Below, in pieces: positions 113 through 28,325 of a DNA stretch of 36,011 nt. The position numbers and the translations under genes were made by a program. This stretch comes from Opitutaceae bacterium. GTDB taxonomy: Bacteria; Verrucomicrobiota; Verrucomicrobiia; Opitutales; Opitutaceae. A model generated the notes under the pieces. That model was not told the origin of the DNA. It saw nothing but the letters and a program-made list of their open reading frames with translations, and ran no database searches. Where the stretch lies: assembly GCA_028822375.1 (NCBI GenBank), contig JAPKDW010000012.1, positions 1 through 36,011 on the forward strand, read 5' to 3'. Positions within the stretch are counted from its first letter, which is position 1, and each line of letters starts with the position of its first letter.

Positions 113-1561
113 TTACCAGCGTTTCGATTTTCGTTTCGCTTCGGTATAGCCGGCTTCGACTCGTTTGGTTTCGAGGTGTTTTTTAAGCTTCGCTAACTGC
201 GACCCGTATTTGGGATCGCCTGCCAGGTTGTTGAATTCTCCCGGGTCGTTCTTTAGGTCGAATAGCTCCATGCCTGCGGATCCGAAGCCCCATTGAGTGA
301 AGCGCCAATCGTGGGTGCGAATGGATTCGCCACCGTTACGGCTGATCGTGAAGGCGAGGGCTTTCTTCCATGCGTTCGTTTCGGGATCTTCGAGCAGAGG
401 GACCAGGCTTTCACCTTGAAGGACATTGGGCGCTTTAAGCCCGGCGAGTTCGGCTACGCTCGGGTAGAGATCGACGAGTTCGGTGATCTGTTGCGTGGCC
501 TGCCCGTGTTGGTCTTTCAACCACGGAACGCTGATGATGAAGGGTACGCGGGTTGCCTCTTCGAAGAGATGTTGCTTTTGGTATTTGTGGTGCTCGCCCA
601 GCATGTATCCGTGGTCGCTGGTGAATACGACGATGGTGTTTTCCTTCAGCCCCAGCTCGTCCAGGCAATCCAATAAGCGGCCGACTTGGGCGTCCATGTA
701 GGAGACGCTGGCGTAGTAAGCTTCGAGCAAGCCTTTGTGCAGCTCGGGAGTGATTCCGTAGGTGGTCTCGTTGTTTTTGTAGGCTCGTATAATCTCCGGC
801 ACATCTTCTAGGTCGTCTGCGGGCACAACCGGGGCGATCATTGCGTCTCGGTCGTATCGATCGAAATATTTGCTAGGGGCGACGAGCGGAACATGCGGCC
901 GGACAAAACCGCAGGCCAGGAAGAAGGGATTGTCTTTATTGCGTTTGATAAATTCGATGGCGTGACTGGCCGCCATGCCGTCGGCGTGCTCGAGATCTCC
1001 GCCGGTGGCTTCTACGCCAAGAAAGGTCTGAGATGTGTCATTCTTGGGAGACCAATTGGTCTTTTTACCAGGAACGTTGTGTTCACCCGCTTTGATGTTC
1101 ACTGTTTCGTCCCAAGAATGAGGATCGTCACTTTCGGCAGTGCCGTCGGTAATTTCATCGGGAATTCTCATATGGTAGATTTTGCTGACGCGTCCGACCT
1201 GGTAGCCGTTTTGGCGGAAAAGCTGCGACATGGTGACGACATCCGGCATGCTTCCTCGAAGCGTTCCAACGTTGCCCATCGTTCCGTTGGTGTAGGGATA
1301 AAGTCCGGACATGAGAGACGCGCGCGAGGCGCCGCACACGGGGTATTGGCAATGCATGTTCTCAAATCGAACTCCAGCGTCGGCAAGCTTGTCTAACTCG
1401 GGAGTCTTGCACTGTGGATGCCCAAAGCCGCTTAAGGCGGTATTGAGGTCGTCTGATATGATGAACAGAACGTTTGGTTTCTTGTCCTCCGCAAGGCCGG
1501 TCAGGGCTAGAGCTAAGGTGAGGCAGGCTAATGTCAGTTTCTGGGTACGCATGTATCTCAT
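113..1561 (-). CDS. secreted type I sulfatase (iduronate-2-sulfatase-like)
   Basis: A 482-aa formylglycine-dependent sulfatase that should hydrolyse sulfate esters, probably of a polysaccharide or glycosaminoglycan-like substrate. The N-terminus has a signal peptide (charged start, hydrophobic LACLTLALALTG, end near AEDKKP). The metal-binding DD pair is at about residues 37-38, and C76-G-A-S-R80 is the C-x-A-x-R signature whose Cys becomes formylglycine. GFVRPHVPLVAP in the middle and the later DHG segment resemble iduronate-2-sulfatases. Exact substrate cannot be read from sequence. The start is ATG at 1559-1561; an in-frame ATG three codons in is equally possible, and neither has a Shine-Dalgarno. 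It lies 41 bases downstream of the small membrane protein gene and probably shares its transcript. An anaerobic or FGE-type maturase is needed but not seen here. Confidence 0.9.
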   Translation of the reverse strand: MRYMRTQKLTLACLTLALALTGLAEDKKPNVLFIISDDLNTALSGFGHPQCKTPELDKLADAGVRFENMHCQYPVCGASRASLMSGLYPYTNGTMGNVGTLRGSMPDVVTMSQLFRQNGYQVGRVSKIYHMRIPDEITDGTAESDDPHSWDETVNIKAGEHNVPGKKTNWSPKNDTSQTFLGVEATGGDLEHADGMAASHAIEFIKRNKDNPFFLACGFVRPHVPLVAPSKYFDRYDRDAMIAPVVPADDLEDVPEIIRAYKNNETTYGITPELHKGLLEAYYASVSYMDAQVGRLLDCLDELGLKENTIVVFTSDHGYMLGEHHKYQKQHLFEEATRVPFIISVPWLKDQHGQATQQITELVDLYPSVAELAGLKAPNVLQGESLVPLLEDPETNAWKKALAFTISRNGGESIRTHDWRFTQWGFGSAGMELFDLKNDPGEFNNLAGDPKYGSQLAKLKKHLETKRVEAGYTEAKRKSKRW

Positions 1562-2223: not shown

Positions 2224-3093
2224 TTATTCTAAATGGGGGGGAAGGTCTATAAGCGCTTCGAAGGGTTCGAAGGGTTCGTTCAAACACCAGGCGACGCCTC
2301 GAAGGATGATGGCTTGATATGTCGGGCTATTGCGCATGGTATCGAAGTGGCCGAGGACTGCACCGAATGTACGACCTCCTTTGGATTTTCCGATGGAGGG
2401 GTGTTGGACGGTCCAAATTACGGGCCATTTTCGGTCGGCTTCCTCTTCGGGAACTTTGGGGGCATTCGTTTCGCCGAGGATTGTGATTTTGCCGCGACTT
2501 CCTTTTTGTAGGTTCCAGTAGAGCTCGTCGGTGAACGTTATGCTCTGAGGAAAGTCGCTAAAAATCTGGCTAGTGGTATCGAGTGTGACTTTATGGTTTT
2601 CGAACTTTCCCCACTTGGACCTTGTCGCGCCTTTGTCCCAGCAGAAAGCGAAGCCGATACGGTTGGCCCATTCGGTGTAGCTTCCTCTTTGGACAAGTCC
2701 TTGGTGCAGAGCTAGTATGGATTTGCCGCGTTTGAGGTGTTGGTCGATTTGCTGGAATTGCGATTCCGTTAGATTGTTTTGGGTTAGGAAAAAGACTACG
2801 AGATCAGCGCTGGCCCACTGTTCGTCGGTGGGAAATCCGTTGATTGCTTGGCCTCGCAGGTTGTCGATACGGTTAAAAAGATCGGCCATCGAATTCGCAA
2901 ATTGACCGTAGCCGTGAGTGAGGAGGGGGTGGTCGGGTGCGGACCAACAGAAGAGCGCGTTTTGAGGGGTGGATATTTTTGCGTCGCTATGAAGCTGGGC
3001 GTCAGGGCTTTGGGGTTCGGCCTGGGCCAGAGATGCTAGAAATGTCAGAATTGCGAATATAGCTGGGGTGCTGGCTTTAAGAAATGGATACAT
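2224..3093 (-). CDS. secreted ThuA-like domain protein
   Basis: A 289-aa protein with a signal peptide (MYPFLKASTPAIFAILTFLASLAQA, likely cleaved after AQA) followed by a ThuA-like fold (trehalose-utilisation family, PF06283; class I glutamine amidotransferase-like). Diagnostic parts are ASADLVVFFL, the KRGKSILALHQG strand-turn near the middle, ENHKVTLD, DELYWNLQ, PVIWTVQHP and the C-terminal GRTFGAVLGHFDTMRNSPTY with ILRGVAWC. Such proteins are very common in Verrucomicrobia and Planctomycetes beside sugar oxidoreductases and sulfatases; the reaction is not firmly established. It starts just after the terminator of the aldolase operon, so it has its own promoter in the short gap 3094-3114 or is read through. 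Confidence 0.85.
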   Translation of the reverse strand: MYPFLKASTPAIFAILTFLASLAQAEPQSPDAQLHSDAKISTPQNALFCWSAPDHPLLTHGYGQFANSMADLFNRIDNLRGQAINGFPTDEQWASADLVVFFLTQNNLTESQFQQIDQHLKRGKSILALHQGLVQRGSYTEWANRIGFAFCWDKGATRSKWGKFENHKVTLDTTSQIFSDFPQSITFTDELYWNLQKGSRGKITILGETNAPKVPEEEADRKWPVIWTVQHPSIGKSKGGRTFGAVLGHFDTMRNSPTYQAIILRGVAWCLNEPFEPFEALIDLPPHLE

Positions 3094-3114
3094 ACAGCGT
3101 TTTGTTGGGGATTG

Positions 3115-3147
3115 AAAAAAAAGGCCGGACGCTGACGTCCGGCCTTT
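3115..3147 (-). terminator. Rho-independent terminator of the leftward dha/lsrF-like operon
   Basis: A perfect 12-bp stem (AAAGGCCGGACG at 3120-3131 with CGTCCGGCCTTT at 3136-3147) encloses a 4-base loop. On the minus strand it is followed by a run of eight T (3115-3122 read as A on the plus strand, overlapping the stem foot). It lies 24 bases after the stop codon of the LsrF-like aldolase and separates that operon from the ThuA gene. Confidence 0.93.
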
Positions 3148-3171
3148 GAACGTAGTAAGCTGAAGGGGGTC

Positions 3172-4047
3172 TTAGGCGTTCTTCAAATCGTTGAAGAGTT
3201 CGAAACCTTCTTTGGGCGTCAGGTTGTCGTGGACGACTCCGCCGACGGCTTTAATCATCGCTAGGGGAGCCTCGGACTGGAAGACGTTCCGGCCCATGTC
3301 GACTCCGGCTGCCCCGCACTGGATCGCGTTGTAGGCAAGCTCAAGCGCTTCGAGTTCGGGGAGCTTTTTGCCACCGGCGATTACGACGGGAACGGGTGTT
3401 GCCGCTACGACGTTTTCGAAGCCTTCCGTGTAGTAGGTTTTGACGATGCTTGCGCCATTCTCTGCGCAGACGCGGGCGGCGAGGCCGAAGTAGCGTGAAT
3501 CGCGGGCCATGGCTTTGCCGACTGCCGTCACTCCCATTACGGGGATACTGTACTTCTGCCCGATATCAACCAAGCGGCTGATGTTGGCGATAGTAATGGC
3601 TTCGGTGTCGGCATCTCCCACGGCGATCATTGCAGCCATGCATGATGCATTCATGCTGATGGCTTCGGCTTCATCGATCAGAACGTTGTGGTTCATATCG
3701 GTGAGAATCGTCGTTCCTGTGTCCGTGCGAAGGCAGATTGGCTTTGTATTGCTAGCTGGGATACAGGAACGAATCATTCCACGGGTTCCCATAAGGCAAT
3801 CTGCGTGTTCGGCGAGGGGAGCGATGTTAATGTCGATGCGCTCTAGCCCCGAAGTTGGTCCCATGAGGAATCCGTGATCGAAGGCAAGCATGACGGTGCG
3901 TCCCGACTTGCGATTGAAGATTCGGGATACGCGATTCTTTATACCCCAGTCTGTGCTGTTGAGGCCTTTAAGGTAAAAGGCACTCGTGTCCGCGGGTGTG
4001 TTGAGCCCGAAATTGTCGCCGTCTCTGATATCGTCTAGATCTGCCAT
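3172..4047 (-). CDS. LsrF-family class I (DhnA-type) aldolase/thiolase
   Basis: A 291-aa DhnA/LsrF-type TIM-barrel enzyme that aligns along its whole length with recalled E. coli LsrF. Shared blocks include the N-terminal MADLDDI, SRIFN-K-GRTVMLAFDHG, GPTSGLERIDINIAPL, DSRYFGLA, KTYY, VPVVIAGGKKLPE and GVDMGRN-FQS. The Schiff-base lysine is K203 in IVKTYY, the same position as in LsrF. In E. coli LsrF acts on the phosphorylated AI-2 breakdown product and yields DHAP and acetyl-CoA. No lsr transporter, LsrK, LsrR or LsrG is present here. The neighbours are DhaL, DhaK and an aldolase/SDR fusion, so a sugar aldolase that yields dihydroxyacetone or DHAP is a better guess than AI-2 processing. It is last in the operon, followed by a strong terminator. 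Confidence 0.85.
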   Translation of the reverse strand: MADLDDIRDGDNFGLNTPADTSAFYLKGLNSTDWGIKNRVSRIFNRKSGRTVMLAFDHGFLMGPTSGLERIDINIAPLAEHADCLMGTRGMIRSCIPASNTKPICLRTDTGTTILTDMNHNVLIDEAEAISMNASCMAAMIAVGDADTEAITIANISRLVDIGQKYSIPVMGVTAVGKAMARDSRYFGLAARVCAENGASIVKTYYTEGFENVVAATPVPVVIAGGKKLPELEALELAYNAIQCGAAGVDMGRNVFQSEAPLAMIKAVGGVVHDNLTPKEGFELFNDLKNA

Positions 4048-4105
4048 TTTTTATTGAAGGTTTTTAGGTTTTAGGAATTTAGGTGTTTAGGAAATAGATA
4101 AGGTC

Positions 4106-4738
4106 TTAGCCAACGTATGCGGTGGCGACTTGAAACATTATGGATATGGAGACTGCTCCGGGATCGGGGTGGCCGATCGATTTTTCGCCGAGTGTTTTGG
4201 CGCGTCCCATTGTCGCGATCATTGCTATGGTCGCTTCCATGCCTGCAGTCGCTCCGTCGCTGACGGCCTTCATGGCTTCGGGTAGCGATAGGCCTACGCT
4301 GGCTGCTGCGGCTTCTTGAGCTCCTGCTAGCGCGTCGACCATTGTCTTGTCGCCTGGTTTAGCTCCGCCGAGATTAGTGACTCCTTCGAGCGCTGCGGTC
4401 ATGAAAGTAGAGAGGCCTGCGGCGTCGAGGCTATCGGCATCGCCTAAGGCTGTGCCGCCATTTTGATAAAGGATGCCCATGACTGCGCCTGAAGCTCCGC
4501 CCATGGTGCTCATGAGGGTAATGCCAGTGGTTGAGAATACTTGGCCAACTGTCGTTGGCTCGAGGGTTTCGAGTTGAGTTTTCGCTGCTGTGAAGCCGCG
4601 TTTCATGCCAAGGCCGTGGTCGCCATCGCCTAAGCGCCGATCGGCCTCCGAGAGCAGTTCTTCGCTTTCGATAATCTTATCGGAAATAGCGATAAGCATC
4701 TCTTTAACTTCGTTGGGGCTTAAGGTCTCTTTACTCAT
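4106..4738 (-). CDS. dhaL: dihydroxyacetone kinase, nucleotide-binding subunit DhaL
   Basis: A 210-aa DAK2-domain protein, the length usual for free-standing DhaL. The Mg-ATP site is clear: D33 in EADRRL, then GDGDHG at 37-42 with D38 and D40 as metal ligands. GGASGA follows near residue 80, and the MGRAKTLGEKSIGHPDPGA segment occurs near the C-terminus. DhaL phosphorylates the substrate held covalently by DhaK. No DhaM/PTS component is present in the window, so this split enzyme may use ATP directly, as single-chain kinases do. It lies between dhaK (gap of 105 bases holding two REP-like palindromes) and the LsrF-like gene (58 bases). The true substrate could be dihydroxyacetone or another short ketose such as erythrulose. 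Confidence 0.9.
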   Translation of the reverse strand: MSKETLSPNEVKEMLIAISDKIIESEELLSEADRRLGDGDHGLGMKRGFTAAKTQLETLEPTTVGQVFSTTGITLMSTMGGASGAVMGILYQNGGTALGDADSLDAAGLSTFMTAALEGVTNLGGAKPGDKTMVDALAGAQEAAAASVGLSLPEAMKAVSDGATAGMEATIAMIATMGRAKTLGEKSIGHPDPGAVSISIMFQVATAYVG

Positions 4739-4763
4739 GGTAATGGAATTGGTTTATTTGGAT

Positions 4764-4787
4764 GGTAGCGGCCGATCTCCGAGCGGC
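4764..4787. repeat. dispersed 24-nt REP-like repeat, copy 2
   Basis: A 24-nt block (GGTAGCGGCC...GAGCGGC) that is the reverse complement of identical blocks at 59-82 and 14964-14987. It can fold as a hairpin with GGCCG and CGGCC arms. It lies in the dhaL-dhaK gap next to the hairpin at 4809-4829, so the pair has inverted GGTAG...CTACC outer ends. Confidence 0.85.
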
Positions 4788-4808
4788 CATTGGTTGAGGA
4801 GTTTTTGC

Positions 4809-4829
4809 GGCTGCTTGGGACAAGCAGCC
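4809..4829. repeat. REP-like hairpin between dhaK and dhaL
   Basis: A perfect 9-bp stem, GGCTGCTTG and CAAGCAGCC, with a GGA loop, followed by CCTACC. Together with the element at 4764-4787 it forms a BIME-like pair whose ends (GGTAG and CTACC) match those of the inverted repeat at 8954-9035. In the transcript it could set the relative level of dhaK and dhaL mRNA. There is no T-run, so it is not a typical terminator. Confidence 0.75.
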
Positions 4830-4843
4830 CTACCTTTGGTGTT

Positions 4844-5839
4844 TTAGAGTTTCGTGTAGCCGAGGGATGAGCAAGGCGCGTCCCATAGTGGTTTAAGCGT
4901 GTCGTCGACTTTCGTGAGGCTGATCGATAGACCGGCCATTTCTTGGCAGGTGACTAGCGGTCCAAGCATGACGTCGTAGATGTTAATGCCTTTTGCGACG
5001 AGTAGTTCTTTGACTTTTTTCAAGACGATGAGGCACTCCATCATTGTGGTAGAGCCGAGGCTGTTGATGAGAACGAGTACGTCGTCGCCGGATTCTAAAG
5101 GGAGGTCGTCGGCAAGGATTAGGTTGAGTAGCTTTTCCGCTAGATCATCGGCGGACATCATCTTTTCGATGCCCACGCCCTGTTCGCCATGGATGCCCAT
5201 TCCGATTCCGATGGAGTCTTCGTCGAGTTCAAAGGTTGGTTTGCCGGTCGCGGGAATGGAACCGGGAGAAAGCGCAACGCCCACGGAACGCGTGTTGTCG
5301 CGAGCTAGGGTTACGAGTTCGACGAGTTCTTCGAGAGACTGGGCTTTGTCGGCGGCTGCGCCGGCGAGTTTTACGATTGGGATGAGGCCGGCGATACCGC
5401 GGCGGTCTTCTTTGGCGCTTGGCGGAGCGGAGGCGACGTCGTCCCAGATGAGTACCGTCTCGACTTTGATGCCTTCGGCTGCGGCGATCTGAGCGGCGAT
5501 CTTGAAATTCATGACATCGCCTGCGTAGTTACCATAGAGAAACAGGACGCCGTTGCCTTTATTTACGGCGCGGGTGGCGTCCAAAATGATATTAGGGGGA
5601 GGCGCGGCGAAGATGTCTCCGCAAGCTGCTCCGTCTGCCATACCGGGTCCGATGAGGCCGTGGTAGATTGGTTCGTGTCCTGTTCCCCCGCCCACGAGGA
5701 GGGCGACCTTGTTTTCAACTATGTCAGTCAGGGCGATGGCGCCGGGGCCGACTTTTTCGACGGAGCCGTTGTAGTAATCTACTAGTCCGTCGACGAGTTC
5801 GCTCGCTGCGGCATTGGGGTCGTTAAGTATTTTTTTCAT
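4844..5839 (-). CDS. dhaK: dihydroxyacetone kinase, substrate-binding subunit DhaK
   Basis: A 331-aa DAK1-domain protein, the usual length for free-standing DhaK. Landmarks: GGGTGHEP at 49-56 with the conserved H54, GDIFAAPP near 73-80, GNYAGDVMNF near 102-111, DDVAS near 132-136, and GMGIHGEQG with H216, the histidine that binds the ketone carbonyl as a hemiaminal. It works with DhaL to phosphorylate dihydroxyacetone or a related short ketose. It lies downstream of the aldolase/SDR fusion across a 180-base gap with a CACGAAT-rich inverted repeat. The leader just before the ATG is CCCTCCCTC, pyrimidine-rich with no Shine-Dalgarno. Confidence 0.92.
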   Translation of the reverse strand: MKKILNDPNAAASELVDGLVDYYNGSVEKVGPGAIALTDIVENKVALLVGGGTGHEPIYHGLIGPGMADGAACGDIFAAPPPNIILDATRAVNKGNGVLFLYGNYAGDVMNFKIAAQIAAAEGIKVETVLIWDDVASAPPSAKEDRRGIAGLIPIVKLAGAAADKAQSLEELVELVTLARDNTRSVGVALSPGSIPATGKPTFELDEDSIGIGMGIHGEQGVGIEKMMSADDLAEKLLNLILADDLPLESGDDVLVLINSLGSTTMMECLIVLKKVKELLVAKGINIYDVMLGPLVTCQEMAGLSISLTKVDDTLKPLWDAPCSSLGYTKL

Positions 5840-5858
5840 ATTTTAAAGAGGGAGGGCT

Positions 5859-5970
5859 GCCCACGAATCGCTCGAATCTGCACGAATGGATTCAGTGGAG
5901 GTTGGTGTCAGATTGAAACTCTAATAAACGTAGGATTATAGGATATAAAAATTCGTGTTAATTCGTGTGA
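5859..5970. repeat. CACGAAT-rich inverted intergenic repeat, copy 1
   Basis: The left part has GCCCACGAAT and CACGAAT (5859-5868 and 5881-5887); the right part has two ATTCGTG (5951-5957 and 5961-5967), i.e. the same word inverted. The layout matches the element at 10135-10287 (GCCCACTAAT... CACGAAT ... inverted). Both lie between genes of one operon or pathway. Confidence 0.7.
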
Positions 5971-6019
5971 TTGCTACGCCATCTGCGCTTCGTTTCGTCG
6001 TGGGGAAATATTAATTGGG

Positions 6020-7852
6020 TTAGATGATTCGATCGTTGCCGCCGTCGACAGGGATCTGGGCGCCGGTGGTTTTTCCGAAAACGGTGGAGGCTAGGGCTAC
6101 TACGACGTTTCCTACGCTACGGGAAGTGATCTCGGTTTTCATGAGATTGCGCTTCTTGTATTGCTCGACGGTGATTCCGTATCGTTCGGCTGAGCGTTCG
6201 AGCGCTTCTTTGGTCCAGAGTTTCGTGTCGAAAACGGCGTCCGGGTGAATGATGTTCACTCTGACGCCATCGGGCGCCAGTTCCAAGGCCGCAACACGGC
6301 AGAGCTGAGTGAGTCCGGCTTTCGCGCAAGAATAGCTGGCAGCTCCGGCTCCTGGCGCGTTTACGTTGCGGGATCCCATTAGGATGATTGCGGGATCGAT
6401 TCCTTTTTTGACGTAGGGAATAGCGTGTTTGAGCAGGACCTGATGGCTGGTGAGATTGACCTGGAAGCTACGGTCCCAGTTGTTTTGCTCCATGTCTTCG
6501 AGGTAGGCTCCTGCGGTGAAAATGCCAGCGTTGGAGACGACTATATCAAGTCCGCCGTAGGTTTGGATGATCTGTTCGATCATCGCTTTGACCTTGGGTT
6601 CGTCGGTGAGATTGATAGTGATGCCAAGCGCTCCGATACCTGCCATGATATCCATGATCTCTGGATTGATATCCGCTCCGATTACGCAGGCGCCCGCTTC
6701 GGCTAGCGTGGTGGCAGTCGCTAATCCTATGCCGGCTGCCGAGCCGGAGACGAGAGCGATTTTACCTTGGAGGGTGAGTGGCGGTGTCGAGGTGTTGGAA
6801 GATTCCGGAAGCGCTGGGCTCCAGGATGCGTCAGCCCCGGCTAGTTGATTTGCTTGGCTGGCCCGGGAGGCTTTTGCGGCCCGGGTGGCGGTTTCGGTTT
6901 TGTTAATTCCGAAACTGAATAGTCCGCGCTTTGCCCAAGCTACCTGTTGGAGGTCCGTTGCGGATCCGAGGTTCGCTTGGTGGTCGCCTTGAGTGATTGC
7001 AGAGCTAGCTCCTAGAACCGTTTTCGCGTGTTCGTTGTTGGAAAGGTTTATCGCTGCTGGCGAGTCGTCGAGATGTCCGACTTGAGCTTGCGCTAGCTTC
7101 ATGGATACGGCTTGCCGCAGTTCTGCAAATTCGATTAGCGATGCGGATTCTCCACTCGAAGTGGAATGAGAGCTGTTGGATTGCGCTTCGAAGAAACTCT
7201 GGGCCTGTTCGGTAAGCTGCAGCGATCGTTTGTAGGATTGTTCGGCTTCGTCGTGAAAGGCGAAGAGGCCGATGCCTTCTACGATGATTCCTTCGATTGA
7301 TTCGAGATCGCTTGATTGAATGAGGTTAGCGAGCGAGCGAGCTTGTTCCGAGAGCGATGATGCGGCTGGGATAACGAGGACGCGTTGTCCGTAAATTTCT
7401 TCGGCGAGCTGAGCGCAGTTGGCCTGACGGACGAGAGCTAGAATTGGGGCTGCACAGGTTTGGTCGACGAATCGAGCGGGTATGGCTCCGTGGAGGAGGG
7501 CTTCGAGGGGAGCGGGTTGGTCGAGAGGGCTCGTGGCTGCGAGTTGCAACTGGGTTGCGCTGTCGTCAGCGGACAGGGAAGCGGCAGCGATGATTTTGAG
7601 AAGGCTCGCTTGCGTGAACGCGCGTAGGTCGCTTATACTGGGATTTTCGTCAGCGTGATCGTTTTCTATGATCGCGAGCTGAGCTTCGGTTTCGCCAAAT
7701 GGGTTTTGCGCTTCGGTCTTAACTGAGCCAATGCCGCCTAGGCCATTGGCGAGAGTCTCGGTTTTCGCAATCAAGCTCGTGGCGTAGACTCTTGCAGAAA
7801 GAGGGTCGCCGATGAGGTTTCGAGCGTCTTCGTTGTTCCACTGGTTTTGCAT
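6020..7852 (-). CDS. SDR dehydrogenase fused to a decayed class II aldolase domain (RhaD-aldolase/ADH-like)
   Basis: A 610-aa protein with the architecture of bifunctional class II aldolase/short-chain dehydrogenases (RhaE/YuxG-like rhamnulose-1-phosphate aldolase/lactaldehyde dehydrogenase), which are usually about 670-690 aa. Residues 363-610 are a sound SDR domain: SGSAAGIG 369-376, NAG 441-443, S493, Y507-x3-K511, and the C-terminal GAQIPVDGGND. Residues 1-225 still align with the aldolase (QWNNEDARNL, ALLHG, LAEEIYGQRVLVIP, ESYKR-like tail). The zinc HxH in the family segment VDHTH is VDQTC (Q131, C133), and the family NHG is EGIG (192-195), so all three metal histidines appear lost. A Ser/Ala/Gln-rich stretch (225-360) links the halves. 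It is the first gene of the dhaK-dhaL-lsrF operon. The SDR probably oxidises an aldehyde or hydroxy-sugar intermediate. Confidence 0.85.
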   Translation of the reverse strand: MQNQWNNEDARNLIGDPLSARVYATSLIAKTETLANGLGGIGSVKTEAQNPFGETEAQLAIIENDHADENPSISDLRAFTQASLLKIIAAASLSADDSATQLQLAATSPLDQPAPLEALLHGAIPARFVDQTCAAPILALVRQANCAQLAEEIYGQRVLVIPAASSLSEQARSLANLIQSSDLESIEGIIVEGIGLFAFHDEAEQSYKRSLQLTEQAQSFFEAQSNSSHSTSSGESASLIEFAELRQAVSMKLAQAQVGHLDDSPAAINLSNNEHAKTVLGASSAITQGDHQANLGSATDLQQVAWAKRGLFSFGINKTETATRAAKASRASQANQLAGADASWSPALPESSNTSTPPLTLQGKIALVSGSAAGIGLATATTLAEAGACVIGADINPEIMDIMAGIGALGITINLTDEPKVKAMIEQIIQTYGGLDIVVSNAGIFTAGAYLEDMEQNNWDRSFQVNLTSHQVLLKHAIPYVKKGIDPAIILMGSRNVNAPGAGAASYSCAKAGLTQLCRVAALELAPDGVRVNIIHPDAVFDTKLWTKEALERSAERYGITVEQYKKRNLMKTEITSRSVGNVVVALASTVFGKTTGAQIPVDGGNDRII

Positions 7853-7909
7853 ATTCTAAACGTTTCCGTAATTAGCCAATCGCTGGCGAAAGGGGTGATT
7901 TTAGGCTAG

Positions 7910-7976
7910 ATTATGGGGGAAAGAGCGTTTTTGAGCTAGGATGATTTCCGCAATGATTTGTACAATTCCTGCAATT
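7910..7976 (-). promoter_or_regulatory. candidate AraC-type operator and promoter of the pseudo-aldolase/SDR-dhaKL operon
   Basis: On the minus strand ATTGCAGGAAT (7976-7966) and ATTGCGGAAAT (7955-7945) form a direct repeat spaced exactly 21 bp, two helical turns, as AraC-family dimers prefer. A CATAAT -10-like hexamer lies at 7915-7910. The -35 slot (7938-7933) is poor and abuts the proximal half-site, a layout expected for a class II activated promoter. The likely regulator is the PAS-AraC protein encoded just upstream. Confidence 0.55.
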
Positions 7977-8027
7977 GGGGTCGAGGCGAAATGGGGGTTC
8001 CTTTGAGGTAGGTCAAAGCGCTTCAGT

Positions 8028-8765
8028 TTAAGTGTAGCGTTTGCGGTAGGCGGCTGGGGTTGTGTGCAGAACGCGGAGAAAGGAGCGGGTGAAATGGCTT
8101 TGATCGTAGAATCCGCAGTCCATGGCGATGGCGGAGATGGGCTCGTCGCTTTGGCTCAGGGCGGAGCATGCTTGTTGGATGCGATAGCGATTGAGATATT
8201 GGATGGGAGTGAGGTGGAAGCTTTTTTTAAAGTGGCGTTCGAAGGCGCTGAGGGAGAGACCGCAAGCTTTGGCCATGTCGATCAGTTTGATTTCGTTGGG
8301 GTAGTTGGATGCGATGTGGTCGATCGCTCGACTGAGGGCTGAGTGGTGAAGCGCGTTCGTATTGCCTTCGAATTTGCGCGTTACGCCTGATAGCCCACAG
8401 ACATGGCCGTCTTTAGAATAGAGCGGAACCTTATTGGTTATATGCCATTGGATAAGCCGCTGGGATGTGGTGATGAGCTCGACTTTGTTTTTTACCACGT
8501 AGCCTTCTTCTATGACGCGTTTGTCGTCGGCGGCGTAGCTTTGCTCGATGTCGGTAGCGAAGAAATCGGTATCGGGGCGTCCGATGATTTGCTCTTTGTT
8601 GTCTAGCCCCATGAACTCGGCGAGCTCTTGGTTGATGTAAATGAAATGCCGGTTGGCGTCTTTAACGAAAAACAGCAATCCGGGAATGCAGTCAAACAGG
8701 AGCTGACCCGCATTCGAGATACGGTTTTCTTCGATGAATTGGGATAGCGAATCGTTGGTCGGCAC
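8028..8765 (-). CDS. PAS domain-AraC family transcriptional regulator
   Basis: A 245-aa regulator. Residues about 15-130 form a PAS sensor (FDCIPGLLFFVKDANRHFIYINQELAEFMG, then GRPDTDFF and the YSKDGHVCGLSGVTRKFE end). Residues about 140-245 form the two-helix-turn-helix AraC DNA-binding domain (IDMAKACGLSLSAFERHFKKSFHLTPIQYLNRYRI; AIAMDCGFYDQSHFTRSFLRV). The start codon is GTG at 8763-8765. It is immediately upstream of the pseudo-aldolase/SDR operon on the same strand, with a 21-bp direct repeat in the 175-base gap, so it most likely activates that operon. The PAS domain, rather than the usual cupin, suggests that it senses a small ligand or cofactor; which one is unknown. Confidence 0.85.
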   Translation of the reverse strand: MPTNDSLSQFIEENRISNAGQLLFDCIPGLLFFVKDANRHFIYINQELAEFMGLDNKEQIIGRPDTDFFATDIEQSYAADDKRVIEEGYVVKNKVELITTSQRLIQWHITNKVPLYSKDGHVCGLSGVTRKFEGNTNALHHSALSRAIDHIASNYPNEIKLIDMAKACGLSLSAFERHFKKSFHLTPIQYLNRYRIQQACSALSQSDEPISAIAMDCGFYDQSHFTRSFLRVLHTTPAAYRKRYT

Positions 8766-8953
8766 GAGTTTCTTAAGGTATTGAAAGCCCTGAAAGCCCT
8801 TTTGCGACAGGAAAGTTGGAAGCCTTTCGGGCCATGTTGCAACGACGCAATCACCGAGATGCGATCACGGCAAGTTCAATGATTAGAGAGGCGATTGGAA
8901 GGATGCGTTTGAAAGTGATATCTGTCGAGTTTGCTTACTCGCCGGGTGAGAAT

Positions 8954-9035
8954 GGTAGGGCAGCATCGCCGAGGCTGCAGCAGTGCATTGGCTTTTGTTT
9001 AGGCTTCTCTGCGGCCTCGGCGATGCAGCCCTACC
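8954..9035. repeat. long inverted repeat (BIME-like) overlapping the 3' end of the sugar kinase
   Basis: Arms of 22 nt at 8954-8975 (GGTAGGGCAGC...) and 9014-9035 (...GCAGCCCTACC) are reverse complements except for one base, with a 38-nt middle. The ends GGTAG/CTACC are the same as in the dhaK-dhaL element. The right arm contains the TAG stop codon of the PfkB gene (9031-9033, minus strand). It could act as a 3' mRNA stabiliser or weak terminator. Confidence 0.88.
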
Positions 9036-10122
9036 GCACAACGCGACCGGAGCCGCCGCTATTCAAGAGGGCTTCGACTTCGGCGCGGGTGGAGAAATTG
9101 AAGTCGCCGTAGATTGAGTGGGCAAGGCAAGAGGATGCGACGGCGAAGGATATCGCTGTTTGCGAATCTTGCAGACCGGGTGTGTTGAGGGCGTAGATGA
9201 GACCAGCTCCGAAGGAGTCACCTCCGCCGACGCGATCGACAATGTTGCGAATCTCGTAGGGTTGGTAGGCGTTGCCGGAGTTGGGGGCGAAGTAGCCGTA
9301 GTCCGATTCCTTATCGTAGAGCAAGGCTCCCCAATTGTTGTGGGATGCGGAGATGCTTTCGCGAAGGGTAATGGCTACTTTGGATACGTTTGGAAATTGG
9401 TTAACGATCTCTTGGGCGACGGTCGTGTATTTGCTGGCGTCAATGCGGCCTGAGTGGACGTCGGTGTTTTCCGCTTGGATTCCGAGGATGTCGGAGGCGT
9501 CTTCTTCGTTGCCGATTAGGACGTCGACGTAGGGAAGGATGCGTTGCATGGTCTCGCCTGCAAGGTCGCCGGCGGAGAGGGTAGGGTTCCATTTCCAGAG
9601 TTTCTTGCGGAAGTTGAGATCGCAGGAAACGGTGATCCCGGCTGCCTTGGCGTGTTTGACGGATGCGATGGTTGCCTCGGCGGAGATTTCGGAAAGCGCG
9701 GGAGTGATGCCGGTAGTGTGGAACCAGGCTGCATCGGTGAAAATGGTTTCCCAATCGTAGGCGTTAGGTGAGGTGAGGCTGACGGATGAGTGGTCGCGAT
9801 CATAGATGACGCGACTGGGGCGTTGGTTGGCTCCGGCTTCGACGAAGTAGAGGCCGAGGCGTCCTTGATCGGTCAATACAATATCGCTAGTCTCGACTTT
9901 GAGGCCCCGCAAGTTGGCTAGGCAGGCCTGGGTGATGTCGTTGTCGGGGATCGCGGTGACGAATCGGGCGCTGCCGCCGAGCATCGCGATCGAGGCGGCG
10001 ACGTTGGCTTCGGCTCCCGCGAAAGTGAGGTTGAGGTCGCCTGGCAATGCTTGGCGAAAACGATTAAAGCCAGGAGGGCAGAGACGCCCCATTATTTCTC
10101 CGAAAGTGACGATGGTATTCAT
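9031..10122 (-). CDS. PfkB-family sugar kinase, probable 2-keto-3-deoxygluconate kinase
   Basis: A 363-aa ribokinase-fold kinase. GAEANVAASIAMLGG (36-50) is the first PfkB signature and DRVGGGDSFGAG (296-307) the second, with catalytic base D302 and an anion-hole GAG. SCDLNFRKKLW near 167-175 and IGNEEDASDILG near 203-214 are typical of KDG kinases. It is longer than the roughly 310-aa E. coli KdgK, with an insert around 215-235 and another around 255-285. It should phosphorylate KDG to KDPG, which the neighbouring KDPG aldolase then splits. The TAG stop lies inside a palindromic repeat, so the last few residues (about GRVVR) may have been altered by that insertion. Another 2-keto-3-deoxy sugar as substrate is possible. 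Confidence 0.87.
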   Translation of the reverse strand: MNTIVTFGEIMGRLCPPGFNRFRQALPGDLNLTFAGAEANVAASIAMLGGSARFVTAIPDNDITQACLANLRGLKVETSDIVLTDQGRLGLYFVEAGANQRPSRVIYDRDHSSVSLTSPNAYDWETIFTDAAWFHTTGITPALSEISAEATIASVKHAKAAGITVSCDLNFRKKLWKWNPTLSAGDLAGETMQRILPYVDVLIGNEEDASDILGIQAENTDVHSGRIDASKYTTVAQEIVNQFPNVSKVAITLRESISASHNNWGALLYDKESDYGYFAPNSGNAYQPYEIRNIVDRVGGGDSFGAGLIYALNTPGLQDSQTAISFAVASSCLAHSIYGDFNFSTRAEVEALLNSGGSGRVVR

Positions 10123-10134
10123 GACGATGTATTT

Positions 10135-10287
10135 TTTTGCCCACTAATAACACGAATGATCACGAATTAGACTTGGGGTTGAAGGGGAGTTTTTAACGGA
10201 TAAAGGGTGGGTGTTCTATTTCTCTTATAAGTAGTGGAATTCGAAAGAAATTCGATTCGTGCTGATTCGTGTTATTAGTGGGCAAAA
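10135..10287. repeat. CACGAAT-rich inverted intergenic repeat, copy 2
   Basis: Perfect 23-nt arms, 10135-10157 (TTTTGCCCACTAATAAC...) and 10265-10287 (its reverse complement), with imperfect inward extension (CACGAATTAG against ATTCGATTCGTG) and about 107 bases between. It fills most of the gap between the kinase and KDPG aldolase genes and resembles the element at 5859-5970. Confidence 0.85.
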
Positions 10288-10316
10288 TTGTCGTCTAGCT
10301 CCGTTCGTAGGTAAAA

Positions 10317-10967
10317 TCAGGCTCTTGCGGCGTCCGCGTTTTCGCGGGCTTGGCGGGCGTTGGCTTCGATCTGGGTCCAGTTTTGGGCGGCGATTAGGTC
10401 GCGGCTGGCAATCCAGGATCCGCCGATTGCAGAGATGAGCGGCGAGGCTAGATAGTCGCTCATGTTGTTGGCGTTAAGGCCGCCGAGGGGGATGAAGTCG
10501 ATGCCGATGTGTTGGTAGGGGGCGGCCATGTTTTTGAGATGCTTTAGTCCGCCAGCGGTTTCGGCGGGAAAGTATTTGAGCGTCCTGCAGCCGAGTTCGA
10601 TGCCTTGCTCGATGTCGCTCGGAGTGACGATGCCAGGGCCGAAGGGGAGTCCTTTATCTTGGGCGTACTCTACGACTCGGCGATTGAGTCCGGGAGCTAC
10701 GCCAAAAGCAGCTTTGGCTGCGACAACTTCGTCAACTTGATCTGTGGTGAGGATGGTGCCGATGCCGGCTAGCATTTCGGGCACTTCGTCGCGAATGGCT
10801 CGTAGGGAATCCAGAGCAGCGTCGGTGCGAAGCGTCAGTTCCATCGCTCCGATGCCTCCTCGCAGCAGGGCCCGAGCGAGTGGGACGGCGTTCGCTGCGT
10901 CGTCAATTACGAGTACGGCGATGATAGCGGATTCTTTGATTTTCCGATGGAGTTCTGCAGGAAACAT
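10317..10967 (-). CDS. eda: KDPG/KHG aldolase (2-dehydro-3-deoxyphosphogluconate aldolase)
   Basis: A 216-aa class I aldolase of the Entner-Doudoroff family, close to the usual 205-215 aa. It cleaves KDPG to pyruvate and glyceraldehyde 3-phosphate. Key residues: E45 in MELTLRT, GIGTIL 68-73, PGLN 92-95, GPGIVTPSDIE 110-120, the Schiff-base lysine K131 in LKYFPAE, and PLGGLNANN near the C-terminus. The frame stays open for 40 more codons upstream, but that extension runs through the divergent promoter and has no family similarity, so ATG at 10965-10967 is chosen. It lies 194 bases downstream of the divergent iclR control region's product and upstream of the kinase gene on the same strand. Control by the divergent IclR protein is likely. 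Confidence 0.92.
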   Translation of the reverse strand: MFPAELHRKIKESAIIAVLVIDDAANAVPLARALLRGGIGAMELTLRTDAALDSLRAIRDEVPEMLAGIGTILTTDQVDEVVAAKAAFGVAPGLNRRVVEYAQDKGLPFGPGIVTPSDIEQGIELGCRTLKYFPAETAGGLKHLKNMAAPYQHIGIDFIPLGGLNANNMSDYLASPLISAIGGSWIASRDLIAAQNWTQIEANARQARENADAARA

Positions 10968-10986
10968 AGGTTTTTTGGTAATTTTA

Positions 10987-11007
10987 TTTGTCAGTATAGT
11001 TGACAAA
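10987..11007. promoter_or_regulatory. palindromic operator candidate in the eda-iclR divergent region
   Basis: A perfect inverted repeat TTTGTCA-N7-TGACAAA. It overlaps a consensus TTGACA hexamer on the plus strand (11000-11005) and a TATACT -10-like hexamer on the minus strand (10999-10994). It is centred in the 79-base gap between the eda and iclR start codons, so binding there could control both. The IclR-family protein is the obvious candidate binder. Confidence 0.65.
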
Positions 11008-11046
11008 ATAATCTGAATAGCAGACAGATTGAAATCCAAACGGATT

Positions 11047-11727
11047 ATGTCAATCGAATCTCGCAGTCTCGCCACGTCATTGTTCAAGGCCTTGGATTTG
11101 TTGGGTCTTCTTAATGCTCGGACGAGTGGAATAGGGATCGCGGGAATCGTTGAGGAGATGGGCTTACCGCGCAGCAGTTTGCTGCGGATGTTGGATAGTT
11201 TGGCGCACTACGGTTTCGTGGAGCGGGATGAGGCTCGGGTGTATCGAGTCACTTCGAAGTTTCGGGATTGGAGGTTAGAGGACGGGGACGAACGTTTGAA
11301 GACGCGGCACCGATCTTTGATGCGGCGCATTGCGGACGAAGTCGGGGAAATGGCAGTGTTGGGACGTCTTCAGGGGCGACGGATTTTGCATGTTTCGCAT
11401 GAGGAGCCGGATTGTCGGGTTCGAGTGATCCCGCCGGAGGGAAGGACGTTTGCTATCGATCGAATGGCGATGGGTAAGTTGATTTTGAGTCAGCGTCCGG
11501 ATCTTGTGCCGAATGATTGTTCGGAGGGTTTGCTCGCTGAGATCACAAAAGCGGGGAAGGAGGGATTCGCTTGGAATCGAGGCGAATCGGAAGAGGGGAT
11601 TATCGCCTGGGGAACTTGGCTTGGAGAGCCGTCGCCGCTAACGCCGATGTTGGCGGTCACTTGGCCGGATTTTCGTTTTTCCGAAGATTCGCTGGCGAAG
11701 GTGAAGGAGATTATGGGAACCGAATAG
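11047..11727 (+). CDS. IclR-family transcriptional regulator
   Basis: A 226-aa regulator. The N-terminal winged helix is at about 1-70 (SLFKALDLLGLLNARTSGIGIAGIVEEMGLPRSSLLRMLDSLAHYGFVERDEARVYRVTSKF). The C-terminal IclR effector domain follows (HVSHEEPDCRVRVIPPEGRTFAIDRMAMGKLILS) and is shorter than the usual 180 residues, ending soon after a degenerate PMLAVTWP. ATG at 11047 is chosen; a TTG at 11029 would add six residues. By position it should control the divergent eda-kinase genes, in the manner of KdgR, with KDG or KDPG as a plausible effector. Confidence 0.85.
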   Translation: MSIESRSLATSLFKALDLLGLLNARTSGIGIAGIVEEMGLPRSSLLRMLDSLAHYGFVERDEARVYRVTSKFRDWRLEDGDERLKTRHRSLMRRIADEVGEMAVLGRLQGRRILHVSHEEPDCRVRVIPPEGRTFAIDRMAMGKLILSQRPDLVPNDCSEGLLAEITKAGKEGFAWNRGESEEGIIAWGTWLGEPSPLTPMLAVTWPDFRFSEDSLAKVKEIMGTE

Positions 11728-26426: not shown

Positions 26427-26591
26427 ATAGCTTGCGACAGCTTCTTTGTTGATTGAGGAGAAATCGAGCTAAAATAGCTGTGGATTTCGACAGATCGAGC
26501 GATCGAGGAATTCGGTATCGTTTCATTCTTCTAGCGTATCGGCGTTCTGTCATTGCCGAACGAGAGAAAAGGTTTCAATGATGACGGATTA

Positions 26592-28325
26592 ATGAAATCG
26601 GAAAGCGAACAGATCCAACCAATCCCGTCGAGTCGTCGAGGGCGCGTTTATTTGTTTCTAGAAAACAATAAGGTGGTCTTGGGGCGTGATCCTGATGGTC
26701 GCTGGGGGACTTTCCTGGAAGGACCGGACCTGGAGAATTTGGGCGAAATTATGCCCGCAGGATTAAGGCCGATCGAGGTCGGAAAACAAGGAGGGACTGC
26801 GCTTGCATTTGCGGTGATGGATGGGGCCGTTCAGGAGCTAGACGAATCGCATCGAGCGTTTTCTCTGAAAGAAGTGTACGAGCTATCGGAGTCCGGTAGC
26901 TCGCTTGCGGATAGTTTGCTAGAGGACTTGTCGGTTATTCGCGAGAACGTGATTCGAATTCCCTATCTCTATTTTAAGGAGACGGATTACATCTATCGCT
27001 TTCGAACGGATAAACAGCGAAACAAGGAAATCTATCACATCGATGATTCGTCGTCCGCGCTTTATCATAGCTCCTTGTGCGAAGCGATCAAAGCGGTCAA
27101 GCGCGCGAAGGAACGTTCGGCGTCTAGCCCTGCTACCCTTGATTTTGGAGCGGTCGAGTATCTGTTGCCGAGCCATTTCGGATTTTGTCTGGGTGTTCAA
27201 AATGCGATTGAACGGGCGTATGAAACGATTGCTGCTCATCCTGGAAGACGCGTCTTCATGTTGAGCGAGTTGATTCATAATCCGTTTGTGAACGAAGACC
27301 TGAAAGCTCGCGGATTACGTTATTTACAGAGCGATAAAGGTGTCCCCGCGATTGACCCGGAATCCGGTAAGTTGTTTTGGGATACGTTGACGGATGAAGA
27401 CGTCGTTATGATTCCAGCCTTCGGAGCGCGGGATGAAGACAAGGTCAGGTTGATCGAGCGCGGCCTACCGATTAACGCGTATGATGCTACTTGTATGCTT
27501 GTAGAAAAAGTGTGGAAGGCGGCCAAGCGTTATGGGCAACGAGGGTTTACCGTGGTAATTCATGGCAAGGCAGAGCACGAGGAAACGAAAGCGACGTTTT
27601 CGAATAGCGCGAAATACGCTCCGTCGTTGATTGTTCGAGACATGAAGGAGGCAGCGTTGTTGGCGAAGGTGATTCAGGCGGAAGATCCCGATGATCGAGC
27701 ACGTCTTTTCGAGCCGTTTCGAGATCGATGTAGCGCTGATTTCGATGTGAGTCGTCATTTCGAAAAGCTAGCCTTGGTCAATCAAACCACGCTGTTGCGT
27801 AATGAGACGCTTAAGATTATCGCGTATTTGGAATCGGCATTAGAAGCGCGTTATGGCTCGGCTCATATTGAAGAGCACATGGCGATGAGCAGCAAGGGCG
27901 ACACTCTCTGTTATGCAACTCAAGTGAATCAAGATGCGCTGGCTCAGGCGATTGCAGAGCCAATTGATGTCGCCATCGTCGTTGGCGGTAAGAATAGCTC
28001 GAATACCTATCAGTTGTATCGAATTTGCGAAAAAGCCTTTGGCCAACGGGCTTTTTATATTCAGTCGGAAGCGAATATTTTATCGAAGGGCGAGATCGAG
28101 CATTTCGTGTTTCCTTACAATCCAAGCGATCCTAAGCAAGGGCGAATGGAGAAACGCTCGTTTCTTCCGGATGAGGATCGGCCTTTGCGAGTGTTGATGA
28201 CCGGCGGCGCTTCATGTCCGGATGGATTGCTTCAGCAGATAATCGCCAAGGTAAATGGTTATTTCGAATCTGCGAATATAAAGTGTATCGAAGATGTGAT
28301 TACAGATTTCGAACGCCAGTCGTAG
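26592..28325 (+). CDS. ispH: 4-hydroxy-3-methylbut-2-enyl diphosphate reductase with long N-terminal extension
   Basis: A 577-aa IspH/LytB, the last MEP-pathway enzyme, making IPP and DMAPP with a 4Fe-4S cluster. From the longest frame (TTG at 26553) the cluster cysteines are C212 (FGFCLGVQ), C314 (DATCMLVEKVW) and C453 (DTLCYATQ); substrate residues include H242, H342 in HGKAEHEE, NQTTLL and GGKNSSNTYQL. The usual TAGAS block is TGGASCP. ATG at 26592 is preferred; numbering is then 13 lower. The enzyme domain starts only near residue 195; the first 180 residues (RGRVYLFLENNKVVLG, then IRIPYLYFKETDYIYRFR) form an extra domain not found in E. coli IspH (316 aa). The core also has inserts. Divergent from sulP. 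Confidence 0.9.
   Translation: MKSESEQIQPIPSSRRGRVYLFLENNKVVLGRDPDGRWGTFLEGPDLENLGEIMPAGLRPIEVGKQGGTALAFAVMDGAVQELDESHRAFSLKEVYELSESGSSLADSLLEDLSVIRENVIRIPYLYFKETDYIYRFRTDKQRNKEIYHIDDSSSALYHSSLCEAIKAVKRAKERSASSPATLDFGAVEYLLPSHFGFCLGVQNAIERAYETIAAHPGRRVFMLSELIHNPFVNEDLKARGLRYLQSDKGVPAIDPESGKLFWDTLTDEDVVMIPAFGARDEDKVRLIERGLPINAYDATCMLVEKVWKAAKRYGQRGFTVVIHGKAEHEETKATFSNSAKYAPSLIVRDMKEAALLAKVIQAEDPDDRARLFEPFRDRCSADFDVSRHFEKLALVNQTTLLRNETLKIIAYLESALEARYGSAHIEEHMAMSSKGDTLCYATQVNQDALAQAIAEPIDVAIVVGGKNSSNTYQLYRICEKAFGQRAFYIQSEANILSKGEIEHFVFPYNPSDPKQGRMEKRSFLPDEDRPLRVLMTGGASCPDGLLQQIIAKVNGYFESANIKCIEDVITDFERQS

Follow-up and report, generated by a model that had tools for sequence, protein, structure and literature searches.

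A conserved operon of marine Verrucomicrobia-like bacteria joining an LsrF-type aldolase to DhaK and DhaL: a candidate route to DHAP in which the kinase most likely precedes the carbon-chain cut

An operon conserved in marine Verrucomicrobia-like bacteria joins an LsrF-type class I aldolase/thiolase to both subunits of a dihydroxyacetone kinase and to a pseudo-aldolase/SDR fusion; phosphorylation by the kinase most likely comes ahead of carbon-chain cleavage. The operon lies in the window, the whole 36,011-nucleotide stretch of Opitutaceae DNA that was analysed. We tentatively read it, with a probability that we place just short of even, as a catabolic operon ending in DHAP in which DhaKL acts ahead of LsrF. 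It offers a candidate pathway to DHAP that is compact and open to test. The AI-2 thiolase annotation of LsrF genes is probably misleading in the genus of the window, because LsrF has a dehydrogenase and a kinase of small ketones as its neighbours there and LuxS gave no match, and it is perhaps also misleading where other marine Verrucomicrobiota, Lentisphaerota and Bacteroidota carry operons of this kind.

No description of the operon was found in the open literature as covered by the listed titles and the starts of abstracts, a scope outside which most subscription papers fall. Within that same scope, topics of LsrF, dihydroxyacetone kinase, Rubritalea, P. distasonis, UPF0261/Tm-1-like proteins, and erythrulose or apulose kinase gave no description of it.

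Layout and conservation of the operon

The four-gene arrangement that a first-pass annotation had proposed at 3172-7852 is real, with its open reading frames at that place on the minus strand (Table 1). Read from 8765 down to 3172, the order is PAS-AraC regulator, 610-aa pseudo-aldolase/SDR fusion, DhaK, DhaL and LsrF, with intergenic gaps of 58 bp (LsrF/DhaL), 105 bp (DhaL/DhaK) and 180 bp (DhaK/fusion). The hairpin directly 3' of LsrF is the sole minus-strand terminator-like site within 2900-11200, the background of the scan being 17 sites on both strands against 11.0 (sd 3.2) in shuffled sequences. The promoter scan returned a single site, on the plus strand, which is fewer than in the shuffles.

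Table 1. Features of the operon and its surroundings in the window
Feature	Position	Strand	Evidence
Terminator-like hairpin, 12 pairs + T tract, directly 3' of LsrF	3120..3147	-	
LsrF-type class I aldolase/thiolase, 291 aa	3172..4047	-	NF006081 424.7 bits, cut-off 297
DhaL, nucleotide-binding kinase subunit, 210 aa	4106..4738	-	TIGR02365 178 bits, cut-off 138.3
DhaK, substrate-binding kinase subunit, 331 aa	4844..5839	-	PF02733 355.9 bits, cut-off 31.4
Pseudo-aldolase/SDR fusion, 610 aa	6020..7852	-	NF006196-like, below model cut-off
Degenerate class II aldolase half, fusion residues 1-345	6818..7852	-	AF2 model + structure alignment
PAS-AraC regulator, 245 aa	8028..8765	-	PF08448 + PF12833
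KdgK-like kinase + KDPG aldolase, upstream, same strand	9031..11087	-	

LsrF and DhaK were found in 11/11 genus genomes (in G004 the contig stops within DhaK), and the gene order of the cassette is conserved across the genus wherever contigs extend far enough; occurrence and order of the operon are therefore more than chance. The PAS-AraC gene adjoins the cassette in all genus loci that reach that far except G009, for which none was listed and in which simple ORF picking also misread DhaL. Among the genus loci that were read and extend so far, the KdgK-like/KDPG aldolase pair adjoins the cassette only in the window genome (G000) and in G002.

Residues kept and lost in the encoded enzymes

LsrF is intact, as had been proposed. 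Its score exceeds the cut-off of the P-HPD thiolase model, and 159 of 289 aligned residues (55%) are identical to E. coli LsrF. In E. coli LsrF, Lys203 is reported as the Schiff-base residue, with Asp57 and Asp251, and phosphate is bound by His58, Arg254 and Gly226/227/253 (PMC2728841). The equivalents of all eight are kept in the window enzyme (K203, D57, D251, H58, R254 and the three glycines) and in 86/86 LsrF sequences checked.

Both kinase subunits also keep their catalytic residues when aligned to the E. coli proteins, DhaK at the equivalents of H56, D109 and H218 and DhaL at those of D30/D35/D37. We take His218 to be the covalent-binding residue and His56, Asp109 and the three DhaL aspartates to be active-site residues. 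DhaK falls below the cut-off of the subunit model TIGR02363 (328.5 vs 406.25). DhaM (TIGR02364) was found in 0/11 genus genomes with a positive E. coli control, so the claim of both Dha subunits without DhaM stands.

The fusion had been described as a RhaD-aldolase/ADH-like protein; the two-domain layout holds, and the subfamily is a different one. Its nearest model is NF006196 (PRK08324.2-4 aldolase/SDR), at 443.2 bits against a cut-off of 831, and the RhaD_aldol-ADH model (TIGR02632, RhaEW) scores lower, at 240.5 bits against a cut-off of 567.75. The copy of Rubritalea marina exceeds the NF006196 cut-off, with 844.9 bits. Aldolase_II is absent from the Pfam matches of the window fusion at E 0.001. 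The metal histidines of class II aldolases, presumably an HxH motif plus HG, had been thought lost from the aldolase half, and this was borne out: with positions assigned by alignment to intact fusions, 0/3 are present in the window fusion and in 10/10 aligned genus copies, and all three are present in 9/9 intact fusions of the same alignment. The copy of G004 is broken off where its contig stops, and the remaining N-terminal fragment was left out, so that 10 of 11 genus genomes were aligned. The motifs that we take to characterise the SDR half (GxxxGIG, NAG, Ser and YxxxK; residues about 358-610) are intact in all ten.

When the full 610-aa model was used for a structure search, the 50 best rows of each answer were SDR folds, and the N half was therefore modelled separately. 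Its AF2 model has a mean pLDDT of 85.2 and aligns with the class II aldolase domain 3m4r (VIA-align; Z 26.1, 2.4 A over 211 residues), a fold partly borrowed from intact relatives because these are in the alignment used. Five pairs were compared, with genomes shared among three of them, and dN/dS is 0.17-0.55 in the pseudo-half vs 0.03-0.17 in the SDR half; the pseudo-half is under relaxed yet not absent constraint. Judged by its residues, the class II half has lost its function throughout the genus, and it may be a pseudoenzyme retained as a folded, perhaps oligomerising, domain.

RhaEW is an assayed bifunctional rhamnulose-1-phosphate aldolase/lactaldehyde dehydrogenase (PMC3870299). It shares the two-domain layout and a homologous SDR half with the window fusion, which differs in lacking the metal histidines, in scoring below the cut-off and in belonging to another subfamily (NF006196). 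A separate RhaEW-like gene with metal histidines (aligned) lies in the window genome, in cluster L088 together with RhaI-like and RhaB-like genes (by eye). Replacement of the rhamnose route is unlikely because this rhamnose-type cluster is retained.

LsrF loci and partner kinases in other genomes

LsrF is 77-96% identical across 80 kept loci, which were selected for similarity. Neighbours were counted by tblastn; simple ORF picking overlooked LsrF itself in 9 of the 80. An SDR is present in 28/51 loci flanked on each side by 4 kb or more, including all 11 with DhaK, and in 13 of the 15 DhaK-bearing loci among all 80. SDR, DhaK, DhaL and UPF0261 are all absent nearby in 19/51, and LsrF therefore has a wider role. 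LsrF is linked to an SDR where the class II half is dead (the genus) or absent (UPF0261-type operons), in support of that part of the first-pass annotation. In a quick tree rooted on enteric LsrF, the lowest branches of the PVC/Bacteroidota part are the DhaK-linked rows, together with a single row that is unlinked.

Different kinases adjoin LsrF in different groups. LsrK is found at the lsr loci of enterics and Lacticaseibacillus, and an FGGY kinase with a GlpD-like gene accompanies LsrF in Shinella and Sagittula. The Shinella operon (LsrF - aldolase/SDR - ABC - FGGY - GlpD-like) resembles the window in that LsrF adjoins the fusion, here 43-48% identical to the nine intact fusions of our alignment and with aldolase histidines present by eye; it differs in having an FGGY kinase and a GlpD-like oxidase and, in its annotated stretch, no DhaKL. 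Rubritalea has the two Dha parts in one fused protein, which exceeds the NF011049 cut-off. An intact class II aldolase combined with a sugar kinase, which the first-pass annotation held would count against it if homologous operons always kept both, occurs in Shinella and, with DhaKL as the kinase, in Rubritalea and Lentisphaera, but not in all operons. LsrK and the FGGY kinase could each supply a phosphorylated substrate. A strict pairing of kinase and LsrF is weakened by the UPF0261-type operons, in which no kinase was recognised.

DhaK, DhaL and LsrF occur without an SDR in Parabacteroides, Aureibacter and G051, whose LsrF-adjacent DhaK is 36-39% identical to that of the window, whereas DhaK lacking LsrF linkage in six Verrucomicrobia-like MAG genomes is 60-62% identical; linkage and kinship of DhaK thus do not run together. 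The next gene is shikimate dehydrogenase-like (by eye) in 4/5 fully read unlinked DhaK loci.

Candidate mechanism, alternatives and the sister gene

What was computed here is the gene content and order, the linkage, the residues that are kept or lost and the predicted fold; the class of substrate, the sequence of steps, the use of ATP and the direction are what we infer. DhaKL, with ATP or another donor, would act on a small ketose or dicarbonyl and phosphorylate the CH2OH beside its ketone to give a 1-phospho-ketose. LsrF would form a Schiff base with the substrate carbonyl, hold the phosphate and cut the chain to DHAP and an aldehyde; if CoA takes part, an acyl-CoA would be released in place of the aldehyde. 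The SDR half might oxidise the aldehyde, or might oxidise the sugar first for a thiolytic cut. In that last version, which we consider rather unlikely, the SDR would oxidise the C4 hydroxyl of the ketose 1-phosphate made by DhaKL to a 3-hydroxy-2,4-dicarbonyl like P-HPD, and LsrF with CoA would release DHAP and acyl-CoA. If true, LsrF chemistry would serve sugar catabolism, and the linkage of LsrF to SDR in operons whose class II half is missing or no longer functional would be accounted for. RhaEW reportedly formed no DHAP without NAD, which would fit oxidation preceding the cut, although the authors read it otherwise (PMC3870299).

The earlier proposal put the kinase after the aldol split: LsrF would cleave a ketose or keto-acid that carries no phosphate, DhaKL would phosphorylate the dihydroxyacetone released and the SDR would oxidise the aldehyde. 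The naming of DhaK for dihydroxyacetone, the dead class II half beside linked LsrF, SDR and DhaKL, and the presence of DhaK elsewhere in 5/5 searched genomes having LsrF alone are in its favour. The phosphate-binding set kept in every LsrF sequence checked and the FGGY kinases of the Shinella and Sagittula operons argue against it, and 12/15 genomes with UPF0261-type LsrF operons (completeness not given) have no DhaK match, so that in these a kinase of the DhaK type would be lacking for any dihydroxyacetone set free; we regard this order of steps as improbable. An E. coli-like role, in which LsrF would cleave phospho-HPD derived from foreign AI-2, or something closely analogous, and DhaKL would replace LsrK by phosphorylating HPD after isomerisation, would suit the identity and active site shared with E. 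coli LsrF and the fact that lsr loci have LsrK as their kinase. HPD has the HO-CH2-CO group required by DhaK. Against this role, LuxS (PF02664) is found in 0/57 genomes with 5/14 controls positive, which also rules against AI-2 production; LsrG gave no match in 11 genus genomes in a search run without a positive control, and neither LsrG nor LsrK was seen in the cassette, nor an lsr-type ABC importer beside it (by eye). The SDR and class II aldolase partners, which distinguish the operon from the lsr loci of E. coli and Salmonella, would also go unexplained, and we judge such a role very unlikely. Equally doubtful is LsrF as a spare glycolytic FBP aldolase in a mixed cluster. Its high identity across loci selected for similarity and the 19 loci without known partners could point that way, but the linkage with SDR and DhaKL is conserved and a class II FBP aldolase (PF01116) is already present in 11/11 genus genomes, on which ground a housekeeping FBP function was rejected; the class I enzyme PF00274 occurs in 3/11, two being fragments.

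The favoured reading, with DhaKL ahead of LsrF, must also be set beside a sister gene that mirrors the fusion. It occurs in 8/11 genus genomes (G000:C358 in the window genome) and has retained the aldolase and lost the dehydrogenase: aldolase motifs are kept in 8/8 and the SDR tyrosine-lysine pair in 0/8. Its aldolase half has dN/dS of 0.06-0.08 in three pairs, and its SDR remnant 0.70 and 0.21 in two pairs, with synonymous sites saturated in the third. These features would suit complementation in trans, in which the sister gene makes up for the dead aldolase, the pair restores the bifunctional activity of the ancestor and LsrF has a side role. The sister gene was, however, not found in G005 (97% complete) or G006 (89%) and is a fragment in G008, in the window genome it and the cassette are on different contigs, the single-contig genomes G007 and G010 place it about 0.26 and 2 Mb away from the cassette, and an intact class II aldolase lies within 8 kb in 0/19 UPF0261-type LsrF-SDR loci; we consider this explanation unlikely.

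As mirror-image descendants of one bifunctional enzyme, the two genes would be a clean natural case for how fused enzymes separate. Duplication within the genus may be their origin; none of three topologies of the aldolase tree was rejected: a clade of sister and window type (p-AU 0.372), sister gene with G040 (0.528) and window type with Rubritalea (0.11). By identity, the sister gene is closer to G040, and the window SDR is closer to Rubritalea/L144/L158.

The LsrF cassette and its fusion protein

Judged from its sequence, the cassette appears to be a variant on known DHAP-forming sugar pathways, and we found no description of its gene set in the titles and abstract openings that our searches of open papers listed. 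The operon proposed in the first-pass annotation (fusion, DhaK, DhaL and LsrF) was recovered as minus-strand genes within 7852-3172. A hairpin of 12 pairs with a T tract lies 3' of LsrF and is the sole minus-strand terminator-like site in 2900-11200. LsrF and DhaK were both present in all 11 genomes of the genus sample (the window genome plus 10 others), with the G004 DhaK interrupted by a contig end. DhaL was likewise detected in 11/11, the G006 copy being cut by a contig end and the G009 copy found by tblastn only. As had been claimed, both subunits occur without DhaM, for which searches were negative in 11/11 genus genomes and positive in the E. coli control; the window DhaK and DhaL residues that we take to be catalytic are retained. 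Among 46 further relatives, one genome (G051) alone had LsrF and DhaK adjoining, with SDR absent there, while three more carried DhaK (39-42% identical) without LsrF and seven just distant LsrF kin (30-33% identity).

Positions of the cassette genes, the sister gene and other features
Feature	Sequence	Positions	Strand	Remark
PAS-AraC regulator	window	8765-8028	minus	first in transcription order
Aldolase/SDR-like protein, 610 aa	window	7852-6020	minus	second
DhaK	window	5839-4844	minus	third
DhaL	window	4738-4106	minus	fourth
LsrF	window	4047-3172	minus	last
Sulfatase-like gene	window	113-1561	minus	by eye
IspH-domain frame	window	26553-28325	plus	590 aa
Sister gene	G000:C358, L087	8490-10232		relatives L093, L090, L091, L179, L180, L181, L182
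UPF0261 LsrF operon	L135	5812-10492		18 more among the loci with 4 kb or more on each side
Displaced TIM-barrel pair	L206	8651-10571
Displaced TIM-barrel pair	L207	8175-10096
Shikimate dehydrogenase-like gene beside DhaL	L190, L191, L193, L194			L192 differs

The SDR half of the fusion (about 358-610) has intact SDR motifs in 10/10 aligned genus copies. In the aldolase half of these copies, both HxH histidines, the HG histidine and KGSG are gone in 10/10, and GGGNTS in the 9/9 that reach it, bearing out the earlier reading of a dead class II half. The metal histidines are present in all nine intact fusions aligned (Rubritalea L166 and L170, Lentisphaera L162, loci L141, L144, L158 and L160, and genomes G025 and G040). 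Compared pairwise, the genus copies average 42.8% identity in the aldolase half versus 88.5% in the SDR half. For these halves, dN/dS was 0.17-0.55 versus 0.03-0.17 in five pairs, with genomes shared among three of the five, indicating relaxed but not absent constraint on the dead half. Its model (mean pLDDT 85.2) resembles class II aldolase domains (top match 3m4r, Z 26.1, 2.4 A over 211 residues), and "pseudoenzyme domain" is the most fitting name for it. The SDR tree places the genus copies in one group with the fusions of Rubritalea, L144 and L158 (99/97). Lone SDRs from UPF0261-type operons form a separate clade (100/99), so that loss of an aldolase half is not required for them.

LsrF residues and neighborhoods

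The window LsrF is 55% identical to that of E. coli, for which PMC2728841 gives Lys203, Asp57 and Asp251 as catalytic residues and His58, Arg254, Gly226, Gly227 and Gly253 as phosphate ligands. All eight are present in the window LsrF, upholding its description as an intact class I aldolase, and in 86/86 additional sequences (80 kept loci plus G051, Parabacteroides, Aureibacter, Sagittula, Shinella and Lacticaseibacillus). Since the ligands are kept throughout, the cleaving enzyme very likely needs its substrate phosphorylated.

The 80 loci are the best of 494 LsrF relatives in a scan of a species-genome collection, a set biased to close kin; 41 had SDR, 15 DhaK (13 with SDR), 29 UPF0261, none DhaK and UPF0261 together, and 32 lacked SDR, DhaK, DhaL and UPF0261. 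Among 51 loci flanked by 4 kb or more on each side, SDR occurred in 28, DhaK in 11 (all with SDR), UPF0261 in 19 (17 with SDR), both of the latter two in none, an intact class II aldolase in seven (each with DhaK), and none of SDR, DhaK, DhaL or UPF0261 in 19. The hypergeometric chance of the DhaK/UPF0261 non-overlap is 0.0027 on the assumption of independent loci, which related species are not. UPF0261 LsrF operons often include PEP_hydrolase-like, Rpe-like and lone SDR genes. UPF0261 proteins are not known to us to catalyze any reaction; in these operons they may act like a kinase.

Matches turned up in 213 plasmid records, 19 of them at 48% identity or more, and eight of these 19 were examined (one, unannotated, via tblastn). 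Parabacteroides distasonis and Aureibacter carry DhaK-DhaL-LsrF without SDR. In Shinella the partners of LsrF are an aldolase/SDR that has its histidines, an FGGY kinase and a GlpD-like oxidase; in Sagittula they are a class II aldolase standing alone and FGGY and GlpD-like genes.

Order of the steps

DhaK-type kinases phosphorylate a hydroxyl adjoining a ketone, and LsrF grips a phosphate close to the carbonyl it attacks. The simplest order would have DhaKL phosphorylate a small-ketone substrate before cleavage and LsrF then cut the chain. The SDR would then oxidize the aldehyde product or, alternatively, would have acted on the sugar before the cut; in the assays of PMC3870299, the homologous part of RhaEW acted on the aldehyde product. 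We put this order tentatively, at slightly under an even chance. The first-pass annotation had LsrF cleave first and DhaKL phosphorylate afterwards, which we consider unlikely, as LsrF would have to ignore its conserved phosphate site (86/86) or repurpose it. For 20 of the 80 loci the genome, of unstated completeness, was searched for DhaK; 12/15 UPF0261-type genomes gave no match (3/15 matched), and cleavage first would leave these 12 without a DhaK-type kinase. However, DhaK occurs elsewhere in the genome in 5/5 LsrF-alone genomes, as cleavage first would allow. The window DhaK, moreover, is 60-62% identical to DhaK genes unlinked to LsrF, and the LsrF-adjoining DhaK of G051 and the Bacteroidota (36% for Parabacteroides distasonis, 39% for Aureibacter) are not its nearest kin, which counts against phosphorylation first. 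These two observations slightly lower our confidence in phosphorylation first and raise it for cleavage first. The dead class II half stands, its dispensability probably does too, and a kinase acting after cleavage is not supported. The rhamnose link of the first-pass annotation is weak, since a separate RhaI-like/RhaEW-like/RhaB-like cluster (by eye) lies elsewhere in the window genome. In 4/5 examined loci of LsrF-alone genomes, DhaK-DhaL is followed by a shikimate dehydrogenase-like gene (by eye).

Sister gene and flanking genes

A second gene of the family, found in 8/11 genus genomes, is the mirror image of the fusion, with aldolase motifs whole and SDR ruined. YxxxK is missing in 8/8, and in G001 the SDR is entirely gone, leaving a protein of 400 aa. 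The gene is a fragment in G008, and searches in G005 and G006 did not find it. Compared pairwise, these genes average 68.0% identity in the aldolase versus 37.1% in the SDR remnant, with aldolase dN/dS of 0.06-0.08 (three pairs). The sister gene lies about 0.26 Mb (G007) or 2 Mb (G010) from the cassette in these single-contig genomes. The fusion and its sister may stem from a duplication within the genus or, alternatively, from two lineages.

The intact operons of Rubritalea and Lentisphaera also carry alpha/beta hydrolase and TIM-barrel isomerase-like genes. A TIM-barrel pair (273 aa; about 343-375 aa) lies upstream of the cassette in G010, G005, G007, G001, G009 and G004, and on a different contig from it in G000 and G002. 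The displaced pair adjoins a gene like those upstream in L079/L081 (by eye). Sulfatase-like genes (by eye) occur in the window and border the cassette region across much of the genus; they offer a hint, and no more, of sulfated algal sugars as substrate, and one nearby gene fell below the cut-off of its family model. Elsewhere in the window, the IspH domain of one frame is confined to 165-572, with a long N-terminal part outside it whose start is possibly misread.
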